DNA of 64,000 nucleotides, taken from NCBI GenBank assembly GCA_002104985.1, contig MCGO01000021.1:496001-560000 (forward strand), read 5' to 3'. Below the pieces are notes generated by a model, which saw nothing but the letters and a program-made list of their open reading frames with translations, was not told where the DNA came from and searched no databases. Positions 27,604 to 54,710 of this stretch are shown piece after piece. Origin of the DNA: Rhizoclosmatium globosum. Taxonomy: Eukaryota > Chytridiomycota > Chytridiomycetes > Chytridiales > Chytriomycetaceae. The number at the start of each line of letters is the position of its first letter. Position 1 is the stretch's first letter. The translations under genes were made by a program, and so were the position numbers.

Positions 27604-27720
27604 CGTTTTTCTTTTGAATTGGACACGTCATGGAAAATAGGCGTTGTGGCACAGTCAGTCAAAAACCCCCTCATCCCCTCCAACTCTCGCCTTACAACTT
27701 CCTCTCCTGCCCCACGAAAA

Positions 27721-27791
27721 GGACCGGGCGGGGGTTGAGCCCGCGACCTCGGGATTTGCAGTCCTACGCTCTACCACTGAGCTACCAGTCC
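27721..27791 (-). tRNA. tRNA-Cys (GCA)
   Basis: 71-base cloverleaf: acceptor GGACTGG/CCGGTCC, D-arm GCTC-AGTGGTA-GAGC, anticodon loop CTGCAAA (GCA), T-arm GCGGG-CTCAACC-CCCGC. It differs by one base (variable region AGGTC) from the other three copies. It is the inverted partner of the copy at 28267. Confidence 0.95.
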
Positions 27792-28266
27792 GTGGTGTTC
27801 CGAGAGTGACTAGATGTACATAGATCATTTTATGAGATATTATTCAGAAGACACCGTAATAGACTGACAAAATCGTTATAATTTAAATCTTTTGTCTCAT
27901 AACGCGTAAAAATACTGTTTTTAGGTGTGTGTCGTTTGGTAGAGTTGGGCCAGTGTCAAACAACTGGCAACCGTCAAAATCAGCCAAAAGCAATGAAATG
28001 CAAGAAATGATCCGAATTCCGCGCAAAATGAGTTACTTCTCGCGGGTTTAATCCATATTTTCCTACCTGTCTGTTGTTTCTTAAACAGTGCCGGCACAAA
28101 TCCCATACTGACACACAACATCAAAAGTAAACGTTCGCATCGTGCTTGAGACACTCCGAACGGAAATTTCAAACATACAAAATTATTTTATCAGACTCTA
28201 ACAGATTGTATTCGCAATAGTGCAATAAAAATAGAAGGTATACACCTAATCACTCCTTCGCTCTAA
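27792..28266. other. Spacer between inverted tRNA-Cys genes
   Basis: AT-rich. A minus-strand open frame (28172-27921) contains a hydrophobic segment and a KFPFGVSQ stretch faintly like a small cytochrome-oxidase subunit, but it lacks an ATG or an identifiable upstream exon. No gene is called. Confidence 0.3.
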
Positions 28267-28337
28267 GGACTGGTAGCTCAGTGGTAGAGCGTAGGACTGC
28301 AAATCCCGAGGCCGCGGGCTCAACCCCCGCCCGGTCC
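28267..28337 (+). tRNA. tRNA-Cys (GCA)
   Basis: Same 71-base cloverleaf as the copies at 49896 and 50227, anticodon GCA. Its 3' flank (TTTTCGTGGGGCAGGAG) is also the inverted match of the flank of the copy at 27721, so the duplicated unit extends beyond the tRNA. Confidence 0.95.
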
Positions 28338-28616
28338 TTTTCGTGGGGCAGGAGGGTAATGAGGAAGGAAGTAATGAGGAAGGAAGGAATGAGGAATCAC
28401 GTTGGCTTTTGAGTGCCGCACAACATCTTCACAGGTTTTCAAGCAAAAGTGGGTCATTCGTGTGTTGGAACTCTCTACGGGTGGCGTTGGATTGGAAAAC
28501 CCGATTTATTCTGCAAATAGACAGCGGAATTCTTATGTCCAAGGTTCTGAAATTCTTATTTCTGTTTATGATCACATCACTCCGATCTCTTCTCTTCATT
28601 TCAATAAACCACTGTT

Positions 28617-45077: not shown

Positions 45078-47501
45078 TCAATCAAGCACGATTGTATCAA
45101 CAACACTTCCATCCGCACGTACGCTCCTCTGCACATTTAGTTGTATCGGCGGTTCCACTGTATTCCTCCGCTTCGCAATAAGCCCATTCTCCTCATCACT
45201 ATCACATAACGAAATAACGTGTCCCAATTTCCTCTTTTCGCCTGTACCTGCACCTGCACCTGCTCCATCAACACGGACAGGTATTACATCGTTGTTTCGA
45301 TTCGTGTCATCGTCTAGATCCACAAGGACAGCAGCACTACCGCCACGCGTTATTGTACCAGAGCTGGAAGAGGAAGGTTGTTCAAAGGGTGTGTCTTCAC
45401 CGTTTGCTTTGACGATACACTTGTCTTCTTTTTCGTACTTGTGTAAAAGGCGAAGCATATCTGTATCAAGAACAAGATCGCCTTGTGCGATGGATTGTGC
45501 GCATACAGGACATTTCCACGTTTCTTTCTTTTCGTTGAACGCGAGGAAAGTCTGCATCGATTCTGTTAGATGGGCGTGATATGTGGCTCTGCTATAGTGT
45601 TTGAACAGAAATACTCACTTCAGCATCAAACACCTGTCGATGTTTGCAGTTCTTTCCTTTTGCAGGATGTTTGATGCGAACAAGCGAAAGCGGACAACTG
45701 AAATTCACAATCGAATTCCCAACTGCAATATCATCAGCCCCTGCTACTGAACTCGTGTCTTTCCATGGTTTTATAGTCCCATCCCGACACAACTTCAAAA
45801 CTCCCTTCAACAGCGCTCCCAAATCCCTCGGCCGCTTTTTGAACGCCTCCCATACCTCTACGTCGGTCTTGATTGCTTCCTTCTCTTTTGCTAGCACGCG
45901 GTCATACATTTTTGCAACAAGTTCGAGTGGGCCCAGGCGTTTATGCACGGCGAGGACAGACTGGATGCTTTGCAGGTACGCTTTCCCATTGACGGAGATG
46001 GAGAGCGTGACAGTTGGCTCTGTGTTGGAGGTGTACAGGCGTTGGAAGGATGAAATGTGGGAACGGAATGTTTGCGTGATATCAATTTTTTCAGTTGTCT
46101 GGAGAGAGTTGAAGGGTTTCAATGGATGTTGCTGTATTCAAAAAATAATAGAGATTTACTCAACTGGTGAGATCCAGCCAAGTGACGCGGATGTGGATGA
46201 TACGGAGAGGGATAATGTTGCAGGTGGAAGTGATCCTCCAGTTGCATGGAAATGCCAATACACAACAACGCCTTCTCGCACAGTTGGCGCGAGTGGAACT
46301 GAAAAGTCAAAAAGTTCTTGCATCATAATACGCGTCAAGGGAAAGTGTATTGTCACGGGAGCTGGTTTTTTGTTAAACAACGAGCCTGAGGTTGTGTGCT
46401 TCCTCCAGGTTGCGCGTAATTCCATTGATGATTTCAGTTTCTTCATCTTTTCGAGAATTGGTGCGAATAATACAGTTGTCGGATCAGGGGTTGGGACTGA
46501 GGGCGTTGATGGCTTTGTCGTTGTCGAGGCTGCTTGAGAACCAAGAGCACGGCTGAAAATCGAAAATTTTGAGGCTGCTGGCTGTGCAGCTGGTTGTGAA
46601 GAAGGGCGAGCTGTAGCGGAACTTGTCGTTGTAGAAGGTTTGGTAGTTTGAGGTATGGTAGTAGGTGCAGAAGTACGAGTTGCGGATAGTGGAACTGTTT
46701 GGGTCGAAGGTGCATCTTGGAGTCTTAATGTAGGAATTCCAGACGGTCTTGGTGGAATATGAGGTGCACGAGGTGCCGGTGGTGGAACAGTAGTAGGCTT
46801 CGGAGCCGCCAAAGCACTCAATGTCGCCATAGTAGAATTCAAGAAAGCCGTGAAACAGGGCTGTGAGCAAAATGTGTTTTTCGTGAGAGGACACTGCAAC
46901 TCCGAAATATGGAATCGTGAACATCCATGACATTTTTTAGGACCGGCGGTCGCTGGAGCAGTGGTAGAAGCAGTAGCAGTAACAGTAGAAGTCGAAGTAG
47001 GCTGAGTACGCGGGACCAATGACGGAGCAGGAACGACGGGATTTCGAGGGAATGTCAAAGTGGAAAGCAACTTTGAGACGTGTTTCTTTGCCTTTTCAAA
47101 CGCCTTTTCAGCGGCAGGAGACACGACCGGCAAGAAACCAGCACGGAACCTATTCGTACATACGTACGTGTAAGCAGCAGTATGTACCACGAGGAACAAG
47201 ACAACAAAGACCTGAATCGACCCCCGTAAAACTGGGCCTGAACAAACGAGCGCCAGGCATCCTTTGCCTCACCCGATCGGATGTACTCAGTTGGAACATT
47301 GTGCGTGGAAGCGGAAGCGGCAAAGCGGACATCGGCCCACTTTTTGATGTCTTTTAGTTGATCGAGACGAAAGGTGCCAATCTGGACTGGGTCGCTGAGG
47401 TACAGCGCAACACTCGACGGCGGCAGAGACACTCGTTCGCCGAGTTGGCGGATGTCCGAAACTGTTAACAAAATGGCGGCGCATTGGCCATCGGGGCTCA
47501 T
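45078..47501 (-). CDS. SP-RING (Siz/PIAS-type) protein 1
   Basis: Four exons from the ATG at 47501. Order: a conserved N-terminal domain of about 95 residues (LTVSDIRQLGERV, VQIGTFRLDQLKDI); a partial MYND-like finger (CHGCSRFHISELQC, FCSQPCF) lacking one Cys and the final His pair; a Thr/Ser/Pro linker; a beta-rich region with YWHFHATGGSLPPATL that may be PINIT-like; then the SP-RING, FSCPLSLVRIKHPAKG-x2-CKH and WKCPVC across the last intron. After it come SUMO-interaction-like motifs (VLVDLDDD, HVISLCDSDEE) and a tail ending VVDTIVLD. SP-RING proteins are E3 ligases that help Ubc9 transfer SUMO in the nucleus. Paralogous to the next two genes. Confidence 0.8.
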
Positions 47502-47557
47502 TGGCTGTGCTTTGGTTTGCTTTGTTTGTTTGTTTGTCCGATAATTAAACAACTTAA

Positions 47558-49595
47558 TCAATCCAGTACTAATGTCTCCACTATCTGGCCATTCTCTTCT
47601 ACTCGCACAAGTGTGGAGTACTCAACGCGTGGCTTCTTTCGTAGTCCTCCTTCCTCGCCCTCACTCTCTTCATCTTCACTATCGAGCAGCGACACTACTT
47701 GACTGATCCGCCTCTTACCACCTCTTTCAACAACCTGCTCGTCATCATCAAGAATCAACACAGTACCGACAGCTGGACCAGCCGTTGGCTTATGTTCTCC
47801 GTCCGTCTTCTCATCAACTGCCACATACTCTCCATTCGCTTTCAAAATACACCGATCCGCCCCCGAATACTTTTCCAATAACCGTAGCATCTTTAAATCA
47901 ATCGTCAGGTTCTATTCACGCGTTCACCTTTGTTTTAGGAAAACTCATTCAAGTTACAATAGTTATCGCTTTACCTTGGGTTCAATCATTCGTGAGCAAA
48001 CAATACACTTCCAAACATCTTTTTTGCGGTTGAATTCAAGGAACGTCTGTCAAACAAGGTCAGTCAATGTATTACATTTTTTTTAAACGAGTACCTCTGC
48101 ATCAAACGCCTGTTCATGCTCACATTTCCGTCCTTTGGCTGGATGTTTGATACGGGTCAATGAAAGTGGGCATTGGAACATGATTGTTGTGTCTCCCACG
48201 CTGATTCCATCGAGTGTATCGATTTGCTGTCTTCTTTTCGTGGGGACAGGCGGCAACTTTTGGGCTTTTGTTTGGAGAGCAGATAGGTCGCGTGGTGTTG
48301 AAGGGGCTATGGGGAGACCTCGGAGGATGGGTTCCTTGTACAGACACGTTTCGTTGAGAAGAGATTCATACAACTTGGCAACGCTTTCTGCTGGCGAGAG
48401 TTTTTGGTGGAGGAGTAATGCGGATGATGTGACGGACTTGGAATCGGAAGGAAGCGTTAGTTTGATGGTAAGAGGGGTATCTTGCGTAATGTGTTTCATA
48501 ATTGACTCTGCATGGGATTGAATACATGGAGTTATGTCCATTCTGGTGGTATTCTTGAAGAATTTGTTTTAGTATTGTCCATTACGAAATGTTGGCCCTT
48601 ACTTGCAGATAACCAACTGACTCTGTACGTGACCACAGATCCGGCGTTGAAAAAGTGAGTTGATACGCTCCCGCAGAAAGGCGCGTTCCAGCAGGACGGT
48701 TCAAATGCCAGATAATCATGATTTTAGGCAAGTTGGATCCTTCCTTAGAAACCATTGATTCGATTGTTTTACGCGATATAGTCGTAACAAGTGTAATTCC
48801 AGAGCCCGACGCCAAGAACGAAACGTCCGTGTTTGGATTGAGTGACTTGAGAATCACAGAAGCAAAGTGACTAATTTCGGGGTCTTTCGCATTCTCCTTT
48901 GTCATTGGCGAATTCACAGTCGAAGTGGAAGGCGTTGGACCCTGATCCAACGGAACTCGTTGATTGACACGCGTCGGATGGTCGAGGATGTCGTGTGTTA
49001 CGATACAGTCGTTTGAACACAGCGAAAGACGGCACGTTGGACAGGCCACACGCAGCAGCATTCTCCGTTTACACGATTGACACGTTTTAGTCTCGTTCTT
49101 GTGCGAGGCAGAGTTGTGTTTGTCGAGGCAGACGAGGGAGCACGCATTCAGAGAGCAGGACGGGACGGTGCATGCAATGGGCAGGAGCGCGGCGTCTGTC
49201 TCTCTGCATGTCTGGTTTGCGCAGTGGATGGTCGGTTTTGGGTGGTTCGGCGTGCGTGTTGGCGTTGGTGTTGGACGGGTTCGTTCGAGGGCTCTTGTTC
49301 TCATTGCGACCCTTTGATGCCTTTCTTTTAGCACCCACCAGAGCACACTAGTAACGGTTTAAAACACTCACAAACAACGATTGATCGCAAGCTCGAGTTC
49401 GGCCCTGTAACTTGGGAAACCGGTTTCTTCAGGGCAAAGGGGCTTCAGGAAGTAGTACAGCTCAGCAAGTTGCGGCTTTCGAAGCATCTTCAGTCGCATT
49501 CTTGACTCCATAATGCTCGTCACATTCGCTTCGGTGAGTCCCATGGACAATGCAAGCGTCTGAGTTTGCTGTCGGGTGAGAAGTATTGGATTCAT
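47558..49595 (-). CDS. SP-RING (Siz/PIAS-type) protein 2
   Basis: Start at 49595, head-to-tail with protein 1. A shorter divergent N-terminal domain (TRQQTQTLALSMGLTEANV) splices at about 49370/49319 into a zinc region with two MYND-like fingers; the second (CQSCKRR ... CPTC ... CSNDC ... HDILDH) has a full ligand set. A beta region (MIIWHLNRPAGTRLSAGAYQL) and RMDITPCIQSHAE precede the SP-RING: FQCPLSLTRIKHPAKG, CEH and WKCIVC. The acidic tail has VVSLLDSEDEESEGEE and ends IVETLVLD. Exons near 47900-48110 are very short. Likely a nuclear SUMO E3; the extra finger suggests a protein-binding role that protein 1 has lost. Confidence 0.78.
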
Positions 49596-49895
49596 TTGGG
49601 GATGAAAAACAAGTAAATAACAAGCAAGAAAATGTTGATTAACAACCATAAATAGCAGACTTAAAATTTCTTACGCGAAATTAGTATCTCACCTTGCATT
49701 TCATTTCTCTTTGCTAATTTTTGACGGCCACCAGTTGCTTGAAACTGGCTCAGCTCTTCTATAGACACCACAAACGGCTGCAAACTGCTTTATAACGCGT
49801 TCTGCGACAAAGTTTTAAGTGGTATGATTGCGTCAGTCTGTTATAGATCTAATAATTTTAAATGTATTATCACATAAGTCATTTTTTTCCACAAC

Positions 49896-49966
49896 GGACT
49901 GGTAGCTCAGTGGTAGAGCGTAGGACTGCAAATCCCGAGGCCGCGGGCTCAACCCCCGCCCGGTCC
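49896..49966 (+). tRNA. tRNA-Cys (GCA)
   Basis: 71-base cloverleaf identical in sequence to the copy at 28267 as far as I can read, anticodon GCA, followed by a T-run terminator (CCTTTT). Confidence 0.95.
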
Positions 49967-50101
49967 TTTTAGATGGAGGGCAGGAAGGTGGAAGGGAAGT
50001 TGAAGATGTGGGATTTTGACGGACAACACCGTCTATTTATTTTCTGCGATGTGTCGTCCAATCGCTGAAAGAAGGCAAGGTTCACACAGGAAAGTCTCGA
50101 T

Positions 50102-50116
50102 CGTGCCGGTGCTACG
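50102..50116 (+). repeat. Remnant of initiator tRNA-Met 3' end
   Basis: CGTGCCGGTGCTACG equals the last part (T-arm to acceptor) of tRNA-iMet at 27532 plus flank; the rest of the tRNA is gone. The following 110 bases up to the tRNA-Cys at 50227 align with 27604-27720, showing a duplicated iMet-Cys segment. The rest of 49967-50226 shows no gene. Confidence 0.6.
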
Positions 50117-50226
50117 CTGCCTTTATGACAAACAGGGCCACGTTACAGAAAATTGGCGGTGTGGCACTGTTTGTCAAAAAACCCTCCAACTCCCCTACTC
50201 CTTCCTCTCCCGCCCTCCGCTCAAAA

Positions 50227-50297
50227 GGACCGGGCGGGGGTTGAGCCCGCGGCCTCGGGATTTGCAGTCCTACGCTCTACCACTGAGCTACCAGTCC
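50227..50297 (-). tRNA. tRNA-Cys (GCA)
   Basis: Fourth tRNA-Cys copy, same 71-base cloverleaf, inverted relative to the copy at 49896 with about 260 bases between. Confidence 0.95.
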
Positions 50298-50864
50298 TTG
50301 GTACAGTGTAGTGATTAAGTGTAATTGAATCGTTTTAATTGCAAATCGTCCTGATCAACAAGGAGCTATGCATCCAGTACGCGATCCAAATTCTGTGCAA
50401 GATGTGTTTATTGCATGGTTGTTTTAACTCAGCTTGTTTGTTGTTTCCTTTCTATCCATGCTAAAGGATTTGTTGTTCCAATCATAACAGAAACGAAATG
50501 ATCGAGTCTTCTTCCAAGTGAATCAATCGAGTATAACGCTTTCACACATATCAACCCCGACATTCTTTAGATTTTGTGAATAAGATTTCGTTGAATTGAC
50601 GCCAATCTTCAAAGTTTGCAAAACCAGTCATTCCTTCATCCCATCCAATCATTTCTTTGATTTTATGTAAGTAAAATCATTTGCATTCGATCTATGCTAA
50701 GTGTGCGTTTTGTGTGTCATTTGTTACAACAGCTTCGTCTTGCGTTTCTGTTCACATTGTGGAAATCTTCAAAGCGTTTCTTCAAGGAACACGATTCCTT
50801 TTCTTGCGTTTCTTCGGGAAAACGTTACCAAAAATAACCTTCTTAGAATTCAAACAAGAAAAAA
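50298..50864. other. Intergenic, no gene seen
   Basis: AT-rich sequence between tRNA-Cys and the GC-rich inverted repeat. No convincing ORF. Confidence 0.4.
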
Positions 50865-50916
50865 CCAAGGCGGCTCCCCGGGAGCCCGTGGCTCCCCCCA
50901 CTCATTTTGAGTCATA
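50865..50916 (+). repeat. GC-rich inverted repeat, left arm
   Basis: About 50 bases starting CCAAGGCGGCTCCCCGGGAG and ending near GAGTCATA. Its reverse complement recurs almost unchanged at 51469-51530. The local GGCTCC/GGAGCC parts are themselves palindromic. It stands out as GC-rich in an AT-rich intergenic stretch. Confidence 0.8.
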
Positions 50917-51427
50917 ATAAAATGTGTGAGTCATAAGTTTTGTATCTTTTTGTGGAAGTGAGAGATCATGGAGATGAACATACATATTTTCGGACACTGG
51001 TAGCAAATAGCGCAATAGCCAACAATCAGACGCTTTTCCCTTTCAGCGAGTCTTCAGCACCTCCAAAGAGAATTTTGGAAGAAACAGTGTTCATATTGTC
51101 AAGGAGGTTTGTGTGAGTCTTGAGTTTCCAACTGCTGTTAAACACTGTGGTTAAACTAGTCGAAAGTCGAAGAAAATAAGGCAAAATGAGAGCGACTCCC
51201 TCTCTGCTGAAAGAAACAAAGAAGCGAGCGATTTAATGCGGAAAATGCGAAAACAGGTCACAATCAGGCAACCTGTACAGTTTAGTTTCGTACATTCAAG
51301 TTATTGGACAAATAAAGTTCGCTACTGAGGGTATTTATTCAAGTTATGGGATGGAGCTATGGAAATGTTGATGGTATATAGTGGGGAGTCGGCGGGGGGA
51401 GCCGACTTGGAAAATGTCTCTCAGATA

Positions 51428-51530
51428 CCAAGGCGGCTCCCGGGGAGCCCAAACTTCTTTGGCTCCCCATGAGTCACAATGAGTGGGGGGGAGCCACGGG
51501 CTCCCGGGGAGCCGCCTTGGAACTTCCTTC
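51428..51530. repeat. GC-rich palindromic element, right arm
   Basis: A 22-base block starting CCAAGGCGGCTCCC at 51428 pairs perfectly with GGGAGCCGCCTTGG at the other end (to 51530), giving a hairpin of about 100 bases. The right half is the inverted copy of the arm at 50865. A third related GGGGGGAGCCGACTTGG lies at 51395-51412. The rest of 50917-51737 has no gene that I can support. Confidence 0.8.
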
Positions 51531-51737
51531 AAACAATCATTCTTTAAAAAATATTCGCGATATTGGGCAGCACTTTCAGAGTCTTTTGATGATATAGGGC
51601 TACTGACAAGATTGCTCAACATCAAAGTGGCCTTTTGAGCCACAAGTTGGGTTGGATGTTTGAGCCACAAGTTTGGCTTTTGAGACAAGGAATCTTTCGG
51701 GTTTCGGCATAAGACACTTCAACTTTCAGAGATAGAG

Positions 51738-52181
51738 ATGAATTTTATTCATTTTAACAGTTGGCTTGAGCTCAACTCTTTACCAAATGAAATAATGCCG
51801 CCAATTCGCAATCATTCCAACAATCCTGCAGGATGCTTGGCCAGTCAGTTAACATTGAATGACTTGCAGCAAATTGCCAAGCTTACTGGAAGGACAGTAG
51901 CAGATGTTCGTTGGTATTTGAGCGGACCAGTGAGCATTCCCCAAGTACGGATAGACGATTTGCAAACCGTCTGCAGCTACTTTCGAGAGCACTTCGCCGA
52001 CCAATTAAATTCTATATCAGCGGCAAAGGGAAAGCGACTATCCAAAGGACAATGGGTATGTTTACTACGAGCCATGTTGTTTGGATGCTTGTATCGATAT
52101 CCCGGAGGTATGGATCGCGAAGCCAGTGTTGAAACGCACGCAGCAGTAGGGGAAGCATGTCGCCACATTGATACTCTATAG
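51738..52181 (+). CDS. Orphan copy of the SP-RING family N-terminal domain
   Basis: 147 codons (or 128 from the ATG at 51795). LTLNDLQQIAKLTGRTVADVRWYLSG, read in pieces, matches the N-terminal domain of SP-RING proteins 1 and 3 (same spacing of Leu/Val positions, then PVSIPQVRIDDLQTV, then a CLLRAMLFGCLYRYP end). No zinc finger or SP-RING follows before the stop at 52181. Either a stand-alone single-domain protein or the truncated start of a fourth paralogue; the reading frame is undamaged. Confidence 0.55.
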   Translation: MNFIHFNSWLELNSLPNEIMPPIRNHSNNPAGCLASQLTLNDLQQIAKLTGRTVADVRWYLSGPVSIPQVRIDDLQTVCSYFREHFADQLNSISAAKGKRLSKGQWVCLLRAMLFGCLYRYPGGMDREASVETHAAVGEACRHIDTL

Positions 52182-52252
52182 TACCAGATAGTACCTGTTC
52201 AGTGTTATAATAAGGAACAAACAAATACCAAATAACAAATCATTTCCATCCG

Positions 52253-54710
52253 ATGAGTCGGTGTGCAGCATCGCAACTAACCTCGTCTGATCTGAGCCAT
52301 CTGTCGCTGCGCCTTGGCCGGTCCTTCAACGACGTGCGGCACTTTCTGTCGCCGCAGCGGCTGTACCAGTTGCGTATTTCAGATCTTCGAACAATCAAGG
52401 CGGTGCTCGAGAACAAGATCGGCGTTGACGACCGCGACTCGTTCGGCATGCCACGTGCGCATCTGTCGTCATCGGCGGCGAAGTCCGTTGTTGTGTGTTA
52501 TGTTCAGGCGATGTTGTATGGGCCGCTGTACAAGTAGGTGTTTGCTGGTTGTTGGGAGTACTCATTCAAACTATCATTCAATCAAAGATATCCGTCGGGG
52601 CCTGTCCATCCCGCGGGTCCAAGTGCAACGGCTGCGGTCCAGGCCGCCACCCGTCACATCAGTCTGCTCACTCCAACGCCCCAACCACCGCCCGTCGCTG
52701 CAAAGACTCCCATGGGCCCTTGTCCATCTTGTTTTAAACACTTAAAACTACCTCAGAAGTGTGCATCATGTCCCACTAGAGCCTGCTCGGCTCAGTGCAT
52801 CATTTCTCATGCCAGGAACGCCCATCCACCTCCAGCACCTCCCATATCTGCTCCTGAAGTTTCAGACACGCTCCTTCCTCCTTTCATTGCATCAATCAAT
52901 AACGCACATGCTTCAACAACGGCGTTTTTAGCACTCCTCAAAACTTCAACAACTCCTCAAGCTTCCATCAACAATACCATCCCGCCACCTCATCATATCG
53001 CTTTCGATTTGTCATTAGAAACAATGGATATGCTTATGGAAAAGGCTGGAAACACGTTTGGGATGCGCAATGGGGTCAGTATGGTTTGGTACTTTCATCC
53101 AACTGGAGGATCACTGCCCTACGCTACATGCCGTCTTTTAATTGAAGGAGTCACCACTCCCGGATACCCCATTCCACTAATTCAGTCACTGTCACCTGTA
53201 AGCCAGATTCTTGGTCGACACAACCCAACACATCTTAACCATGACAACTTCTTAAACAAAGGGACTCACGAAAATCGATGTAACGCCATCGTTGAAACCA
53301 TTGCTTCCTGCTCTGTTTCGAGAATATGAAGCACGAAAATGTCCGAAAGTTACTCTCTCAATCACATTCAATTCAACTGTCCACCTCACGTCAATACAAA
53401 CAATTGTTGCTGTTCAGCGGCGACTATTACCCTCCGAGTCTGTCGGGAAAATGTATATCGCGTTGATTGAGAATCGGCGAGGGAAACCTCTTGAAGACGA
53501 TGAATTATTCGGAAAGGCTGAAACGAACTCGAGCATTCCAGAGCCATCAAATAATGTCGATACAGAATCGAAAAATGTTGCTGAGTCGAATGTTCATGTG
53601 TCGGCCAAAGATACCATTGACAAAATATCACAAACCACTGATGAATCGAATATGCAAGCGAGTTCAGAAGCGCACGACAACAAAATCAGTTCAGAATCAT
53701 CAAATAATACCTCAAATGTTCAAGAATCAGCTAACAATACCGCCAATACATTGCCTTCACTGCCACTTCCTTCTCTAACCCTTTCTTCTCAATCCCTACC
53801 GCCACAAACTCTTCCATCTCTCCCACTGCCGTCACAAGAAAAACCTGCCCCGTCTCTTCCGACTTTAAGTCCTCCTTCACCATCACTTCCACCTCCACCA
53901 CCCCCTTCCTCAATGTCATCTACTTTATCCACACCAAATCTTCAAAAACAAAACCTTCCCTCATCAGATTCACCTCCCCTCAAAGGACTTTCAACAGCCC
54001 CCAAAACGCCATACGACCTCCTCACCCTCCAAACCCTCCTCCTCACCCTCCCAGACCCAACAACCAAACCACCCACACACCCACTCCCCACACAAACAGA
54101 CGACCTAACAATCCTCGACTCAACCGTCCCCTTCACATGCCCACTCTCCCTCGTCCGCATCCAACACCCTACAAAAGGCCCTCACTGCACACACAAACAG
54201 ACCTTTGACGCACAAGTCTTCCTCGCATTCAACGAGCGCAAAGACCCGAGCACGTGGAAATGCCCTGTTTGTAGTAAAGCGATTGTTGGGGGTGCTACCG
54301 GGCTTGTCATTGATGTGTCCATGTGTCGGTTGTTGAGGAAGTATCCGGGTGTGGATCGGTGTATTGTGCATCCAGATGGAAGGGACGAGGCGGTTAGTTG
54401 TGGTGAGAGTGTGGGCGGTGGGAGTAAACGGGAGGAGGAGGGGGTTGTTGTTGTGGGAGATGGTGGTGGTGGTAGTAGTGGAAGGAAGGAGAAGGGGAAA
54501 AGAGGGGTTGAGGAGGTGATTGTGATTGATAGTGATGATTCGGAGGGTGGGAGTGATGAAGAAGATGCGGAGCCATTGGCAAAGAGGCTGAGAGTTCCTG
54601 TTACGGGAGGGCCTTTGGGAACGATTGTTGCTACTCCAAAAGTTGTGTATGAGACGGTGACGAGTGTGGGAGAAGGGGGAAAGATTGTGGAGACTATTGT
54701 GATTGATTGA
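52253..54710 (+). CDS. SP-RING (Siz/PIAS-type) protein 3
   Basis: Exons 52253-52533, 52588-53197 and 53262-54710 (779 residues), all joins in frame. Order: N-terminal domain (LTSSDLSHLSLRLGRS, LYQLRISDLRTI); a complete MYND-like finger (CPSC ... CASC ... CSAQC ... HARNAH); a beta region with VWYFHPTGGSLPYATC; a helical/PINIT-like segment (TKIDVTPSLKPLLPAL, TLSITFNSTVHL); a long Asn/Ser then Pro/Leu-rich linker; the SP-RING FTCPLSLVRIQHPTKG, CTH and WKCPVC in one exon; an acidic SUMO-interaction-like motif (EVIVIDSDDSEGG); and the tail IVETIVID. On the opposite strand to paralogues 1 and 2. Probable nuclear SUMO E3 ligase. Confidence 0.8.

Follow-up and report, generated by a model that had tools for sequence, protein, structure and literature searches.

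SUMO E3 ligases of the Siz/PIAS type carry a PINIT domain, an SP-RING and an SP-CTD, in that order, with a SUMO-interaction motif (SIM) after the SP-CTD. Described members include yeast Siz1 (structures 3i2d and 5jne) and Siz2 (6u75), PIAS2 (4fo9) and PIAS3 (4mvt). Target choice by these ligases depends partly on the surroundings of the SP-RING. The N-terminal SAP domain is built of two helices. According to one report (PMC8591536), the SAP of yeast Siz2 binds duplex DNA and its deletion leaves no detectable RPA modification in vitro, whereas a PINIT/SP-RING fragment of Siz1 is active without SAP and the in vivo role of the Siz2 SAP is less clear. What replacing SAP does is therefore not to be taken for granted, and the effect merits testing. 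Here we describe three genes, A, B and C, at positions 45078-54710 of a 64,000-nucleotide stretch of the genome of Rhizoclosmatium globosum, an aquatic fungus of the Chytriomycetaceae (assembly GCA_002104985.1, contig MCGO01000021.1, positions 496,001 to 560,000; hereafter the window). Judging from sequence and predicted structure, they probably (about 0.85) encode Siz/PIAS-type SUMO E3 ligases that have a standard core and a non-standard targeting front.

Gene models for A, B and C were built by splicing at GT-AG introns. The models confirm an initial reading of the DNA made without database searches (the sequence-only reading), which had described three genes of the same layout within 10 kb, two on one strand and one on the other. 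The genes are as follows.

45078-47501, minus strand: gene A, 742 residues, four exons (47212-47501, 46165-47149, 45619-46098, 45078-45551), GT-AG introns
47558-49595, minus strand: gene B, 617 residues, five exons (49372-49595, 48603-49347, 48095-48553, 47975-48046, 47558-47911), GT-AG introns
52253-54710, plus strand: gene C, 779 residues, three exons (52253-52533, 52588-53197, 53262-54710), equal to BCR33DRAFT_716842

In each gene, exon 1 encodes an N-terminal domain (N-domain), followed by a finger region, a W-[HY]-[FL]-[HN] block, a [KR]-[IM]-D-[IV]-T block, the SP-RING, the SP-CTD, a SIM and a C-terminal [IV]V[ED]T[IL]V[IL]D. An intron separates the two blocks in A, B and C. The public R. 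globosum protein BCR33DRAFT_716842 is identical to our model of gene C, letter for letter. The public model of A, BCR33DRAFT_212436 (P0004, 452 residues), is shortened at both ends; it begins within exon 2 and loses the frame after FDAE, past the first half of the SP-RING. Domain searches on P0004 would therefore miss the N-domain and half of the SP-RING.

The core of a Siz/PIAS ligase can be followed through all three genes. Pfam searches of exon pieces matched zf-MIZ in C (E-value 3.5e-15), B (1.1e-8) and A (2.1e-8, plus 1.1e-4 on the next exon), and the SP-RING ligands C-x-H...C-x2-C are intact in all three. Alignment of the family profile to PIAS2 and PIAS3 extends through the SP-CTD that follows. 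The predicted model of a relative from Podochytrium, P0007, matches the crystal structures of Siz1, Siz2, PIAS2 and PIAS3 from PINIT through SP-RING, and A, B and C were aligned to P0007 across the PINIT region. Because of this match, the "WHFH" block and the next exon are, on the predicted fold, a PINIT domain. The sequence-only reading had set that block apart as an element of its own, whereas it makes up half of the domain.

45880-46365, minus strand: A, PINIT with "YWHFH" and "KIDITQ" blocks, split by intron 2 (fold of relative P0007, alignment)
45501-45705, minus strand: A, SP-RING, split by intron 3 (zf-MIZ match, ligands)
45384-45500, minus strand: A, SP-CTD (profile alignment)
48356-48800, minus strand: B, PINIT (alignment, fold of relative P0007)
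47996-48181, minus strand: B, SP-RING (zf-MIZ match, ligands)
47816-47995, minus strand: B, SP-CTD (alignment)
52991-53474, plus strand: C, PINIT, split by intron 2 (alignment, fold of relative P0007)
54129-54272, plus strand: C, SP-RING (zf-MIZ match, ligands)
54273-54395, plus strand: C, SP-CTD (alignment)

The tails were compared across A, B, C, gene D (an SP-RING gene elsewhere in the genome) and the related proteins P0005-P0010. A SIM pattern, composed after the motifs had been seen, is present in 10/10 tails, compared with a mean of 0.55 in shuffled tails, and 0 of 1000 shuffles reached 10. The last ten residues are near-fixed, and every tail has a G at position -10, a T at -5 and a D at -1. 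The acidic motif and VETIVID-like end proposed earlier for all three genes are thus found throughout this set, and SP-RING, PINIT, SP-CTD and SIM uphold the proposed identity as SUMO E3 ligases of the Siz/PIAS family. At this near-invariant free end of the family (GKVVETIVID), the AlphaFold model of P0007 has a low-confidence beta hairpin.

45306-45335, minus strand: A, second hydrophobic-acidic patch AAVLVDLDDD, a possible second SIM that lies outside the SIM pattern
45189-45221, minus strand: A, SIM HVISLCDSDEE (SIM pattern)
45081-45110, minus strand: A, conserved C-terminal GSVVDTIVLD (tail comparison)
47738-47764, minus strand: B, SIM-like TVLILDDDE (tail comparison)
47669-47698, minus strand: B, SIM VVSLLDSEDE (SIM pattern)
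47561-47590, minus strand: B, conserved C-terminal GQIVETLVLD (tail comparison)
54516-54545, plus strand: C, SIM VIVIDSDDSE (SIM pattern)
54678-54707, plus strand: C, conserved C-terminal GKIVETIVID (tail comparison)

Unlike described Siz/PIAS proteins, the family has no recognised SAP, a different helical N-domain and a VETIVID-like end of its own, and some members have C6H2 fingers between N-domain and PINIT. The absence of SAP claimed earlier holds insofar as the cluster has no Pfam SAP match above cut-off. We therefore file A, B and C as Siz/PIAS-type by their PINIT-SP-RING core, and not as the SAP-bearing subtype.

Complete C6H2 fingers occur twice in B and once in C. The finger of A keeps five Cys and neither distal His and is thus degenerate.

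46855-46932, minus strand: A, degenerate finger, five Cys, distal His lost (ligand comparison)
49101-49223, minus strand: B, C6H2 finger 1 (ligand comparison)
48978-49082, minus strand: B, C6H2 finger 2 (ligand comparison)
52721-52825, plus strand: C, C6H2 finger (ligand comparison)

Full C6H2 spacing was seen in 7/10 finger sequences (B twice, C, D, Siphonaria twice and Podochytrium once); the three off-pattern sequences are that of A, a truncated Obelidium model and one Podochytrium finger. Public models P0008, P0009 and P0010 have no fingers. Since P0006, P0009 and P0010 look truncated N-terminally, we do not take their lack of N-domain or fingers as loss. PINIT, SP-RING, SIM and C-terminus are common to the nine members of the full alignment; D is without PINIT, and a further SP-RING gene of the genome, E, is without the C-terminus. 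On these comparisons the fingers are the variable part of the family. They share the spacing C-x2-C ... C-x2-C ... C-x3-C-x3-H-x4-H with HIT, MYND and C6H2 fingers (zf-HIT, zf-C6H2, VATC), but no curated model reaches its cut-off on them: zf-HIT gave E 0.69 in A and 3.7 in B, zf-C6H2 gave 0.88 in A, and VATC gave 0.069. C2H2-type models were also weakly matched (0.1-0.99). zf-MYND was not among the matches listed for the pieces scanned, and the resemblance is limited to Cys/His spacing. The "MYND-like fingers" of the sequence-only reading therefore stand as a spacing pattern, intact in B and C, and not as a zf-MYND match or in the degenerate finger of A.

The N-domain spans about 95 residues in exon 1 (75 in B). 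Those of A and C match each other over ~90 residues at E 1e-6 to 4e-6 (10-sequence database, composition correction off), and P0007 retrieves the N-domain of A in the genome at E 8.5e-7. Identities are 28% between A and C, 30% between A and P0007 and 33% between A and P0008. The B N-domain is much diverged (14% identity to A, 24% to C) and is aligned mainly by position; the shared domain proposed earlier is thus supported for A and C, and B is placed with them largely by where it lies. The predicted model of the C N-domain is all helix, with five or six helices (predicted local distance difference test score, pLDDT, 76; predicted template-modelling score, pTM, 0.67). The domain also turned up weakly in gene D (E 0.07, plus alignment) and in gene E, where by eye it spans an intron. 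A stand-alone N-domain open reading frame (ORF) lies just before C.

47220-47501, minus strand: A, N-domain (A-C match; Podochytrium P0007 match)
49347-49595, minus strand: B, diverged N-domain (position)
52253-52531, plus strand: C, N-domain (predicted helical model)
51795-52178, plus strand: stand-alone N-domain ORF, 128 residues, stopping after "RHIDTL" (33-36% identity to the C N-domain)

The stand-alone ORF is intron-less and reads through the site of the first intron of C, where A, B and C all have an intron; intron loss or a separate small protein are possible explanations. The sequence-only reading had overlooked both this ORF and a SAP-bearing Siz gene elsewhere in the genome. It had called the N-domain unrecognised, and in agreement no library searched gave a significant match: none in Pfam, 0 matches at E <= 1 in NCBIfam, a best E of 0.031 (unnamed) in PHROGs, 0.061 among PDB sequences, 3.6 and 2.8 in Foldseek searches of PDB and BFVD, and 0.8 by tblastn against plasmids. 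This lack of library matches is not proof of a new fold.

Several observations weigh against reading A, B and C as Siz/PIAS-type ligases of a single family. Pfam PINIT was not among the matches for the gene pieces and relatives scanned. The P0007 model has a mean pLDDT of 57 and a pTM of 0.42, and its SP-RING part is modelled poorly. Its TM-scores against PIAS/Siz structures are 0.16-0.23 by query and 0.27-0.47 by target, with root-mean-square deviations of 5.5-12.1 Å, so the orientations of its domains are not reproduced. Membership of the B N-domain rests on position, and its divergence is strong.

The N-domain could be a highly diverged SAP, in which case A, B and C would be ordinary Siz/PIAS proteins plus fingers, or it could contain a Cro/LacI-type helix-turn-helix that took over DNA targeting from SAP. 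Pfam HTH_26 weakly matched one N-domain sequence, and the weak fold rows include proteins that we take to be of the helix-turn-helix class. Therefore, we compared the N-domain profile with small XRE, LacI and SAP profiles, which gave P values of 0.0015, 0.0068 and 0.026, respectively; for scale, XRE gave 0.00016 against LacI and 0.065 against SAP. Column permutations reached none of the three scores (0/60 each for XRE, LacI and SAP). When shuffled in blocks that keep local patterns, 6/120 profiles reached the SAP score, versus 0/120 for XRE and 0/120 for LacI. By eye, several N-domains show in their first half a spacing like that of the helix-turn-helix in Cro/C1 and LacI proteins (small residue, x3, Gly, x5, Val). 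The N-domain differs from these in an extra C-terminal helix ending QAxLYG, and the profile similarity is weak. The helix-turn-helix is further weakened by an HHalign probability of 16.7%, by MBF1 alone (P 0.21) and by the consensus N-domain, which draws IF2_N (0.054) and SAP (0.19) from Pfam rather than HTH_26. A diverged SAP has its own difficulties: no SAP match is listed for the individual members scanned, whereas the same Pfam library finds SAP at 7.8e-10 in the other Siz of this genome, and the C model has more helices than the two of SAP. On balance this controlled but weak profile match favours helix-turn-helix over SAP for the N-domain without establishing it; we regard the helix-turn-helix as possible but doubtful and a diverged SAP as unlikely.

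With A, B and C taken as Siz/PIAS-type ligases, the SP-RING and SP-CTD would hold SUMO-charged Ubc9 and the PINIT would orient and present the substrate, both as in the Siz1 complex 5jne, while the acidic-flanked SIM or SIMs would hold SUMO. The SP-RING, SP-CTD and PINIT steps are most likely correct, backed as they are by sequence and predicted fold. The helical N-domain would stand in for the N-terminal SAP, and C6H2 fingers of HIT/MYND-like type, from zero to two per protein, would serve as additional docking modules; we infer that N-domain and fingers choose the targets and that the proteins are active as ligases. Because the N-domain occupies the place of SAP, it likely serves in chromatin or DNA targeting. 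More speculatively, and rather improbably in our estimate, SUMO ligases of the Chytriomycetaceae with a Cro/LacI-type helix-turn-helix for SAP could pick DNA sites by sequence, the fingers would be partner-specific add-ons, and the adjacent stand-alone N-domain protein could compete for these same sites. As a natural family with the catalytic core retained and the front exchanged, these proteins could serve as a comparison set for the parts played by PINIT/SP-RING and by the N-terminal module in target choice. In the open-licence literature we found no published account joining SP-RING and PINIT with MYND or helix-turn-helix, and nothing relevant on fungal PIAS-type MYND-finger SUMO ligases, on chytrid SUMO ligases or PIAS, or on SUMO in Rhizoclosmatium globosum.

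The family layout is not unique to this locus. Of 1646 candidates scored in a region search, nine proteins had E <= 0.001, and whole-family alignment searches returned three proteins each among the best 7988 and 7995 scored candidates. The nine proteins come from Rhizoclosmatium (three, one from strain JEL0117), Siphonaria, Obelidium, Podochytrium (three, on three contigs) and Chytriomyces. All are from Chytriomycetaceae, with relatives in five genomes other than this one. The family therefore appears restricted to Chytriomycetaceae so far, which is a search outcome and not a proven limit. A metagenome protein (P0003, E 4.9e-9) was excluded from the family and used as outgroup only, and the public model P0010 is without the second half of the SP-RING.

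Across SP-RING and SP-CTD, A shares 68-74% identity with Siphonaria, Obelidium and P0007 and 63-68% with the other three relatives, compared with 56-57% with B and C. In the PINIT, A shares 40-45% with Siphonaria, Obelidium, P0007 and Chytriomyces and 33-35% with the other Podochytrium proteins, compared with 39% with C and 23% with B. Compared region by region, A resembles proteins from other genera more than it resembles B or C, and thus is not a recent copy of either. C has slightly more in common with A than with the proteins of other genera (SP-RING and SP-CTD, 56% vs 52-55%; PINIT, 39% vs 26-33%). In one tree the family is set apart from the SAP-bearing Siz and from the outgroup (98/95), but both of these are long, half-empty rows, and that of the Siz covers under half of the columns. 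The two trees are mostly unresolved: 8/10 and 6/7 inner branches are open, the bootstrap of the first is unsettled, and B, C, D and E sit on long branches. Tests holding together A, B and C (approximately unbiased P 0.231) or B and C (0.19) rejected neither. The "locally expanded" set of the sequence-only reading thus holds as three genes in 10 kb, and a recent local expansion is not upheld.

Genome-wide, 13 zf-MIZ matches fall into five contig sets: the window cluster (C124, C173, C213), C390/C420, C195/C366, C148/C290 and C399. In C399 (L014), SAP (E 7.8e-10, as above) lies about 1.2 kb before the SP-RING, and by eye we take the two as one Siz gene. It shares with the family the SP-RING and, by eye, a SIM-like AIIDLTLSDDDE; it differs in having SAP and, again by eye, in showing no fingers or VETIVID end in its reading frames. 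Gene D (C390/C420/C417) has N-domain, finger, SP-RING and C-terminus and, by eye, no PINIT; its frames differ between copies. The C390/C420 locus occurs once more on C417 (99.1% identical to C420, 96.4% to C390), which places D on three contigs (L010/L013/L019 = C390, C420, C417), one beyond two haplotypes. Directly upstream of D on the same strand is, by eye, a MYND-type zinc-finger gene (L019 3052-3999 on C417, and the matching stretch of L010). Gene E (C290/C148) has, by eye, PINIT-like and SP-RING segments, no fingers, and an acidic SIM-like stretch without the family C-terminal end. By eye, C366/C195 looks ZMIZ-like.

Some cluster members might be decaying or inactive copies rather than working ligases. 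The assembly (56.9 Mb, 420 contigs) carries many loci on two near-identical contigs and is thus partly haplotype-split. In the alternative haplotype, A and most of B are on C173, and the rest of B and C on C213, with the junction at about window position 49206, within exon 2 of B. Decay would fit the lost finger ligands of A, the single-base indels that the alternative haplotigs show within B and C exons, and the dispersed relative D with its missing PINIT and differing frames. In B, 0 synonymous and 1 nonsynonymous changes (over part of the gene) are too few to measure selection. Against decay, all three genes keep a full set of SP-RING ligands, and on the main contig their reading frames stay open, with GT-AG introns. 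Between haplotypes, C carries 17 synonymous against 9 nonsynonymous changes (ratio of nonsynonymous to synonymous polymorphism, pN/pS, 0.18; Fisher P = 1.6e-5), and A has 4 synonymous versus 1 nonsynonymous. The stand-alone N-domain ORF has 4 and 2 (P = 0.026), together with single-base indels in the alternative haplotig. C213 and the part of C173 near its end contain single-base gaps, which often have no other changes around them and are likely assembly errors; we therefore do not call the stand-alone N-domain a pseudogene on that ground. Taken together, decay of some members seems very unlikely to us, and working ligases remain our preferred reading.

Further elements were seen in the window. 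Pairs of tRNA-Cys(GCA) in opposite orientation occur at two sites, 49896-49967 (plus) with 50225-50298 (minus) and 27720-27791 (minus) with 28266-28339 (plus), and the two sites have stretches 78-95% identical to each other. The pair at 49891-50302 has 95-nucleotide arms that are 93% complementary. Between B and C, at about 50856-51540, lies a dispersed repeat with 44-nucleotide inverted arms rich in CCAAGGCGGCTCCC. Counting itself, its 141-base right end is matched 14 times in the genome over at least 128 bases at 91-100% identity, and the repeat looks like a miniature inverted-repeat transposable element.

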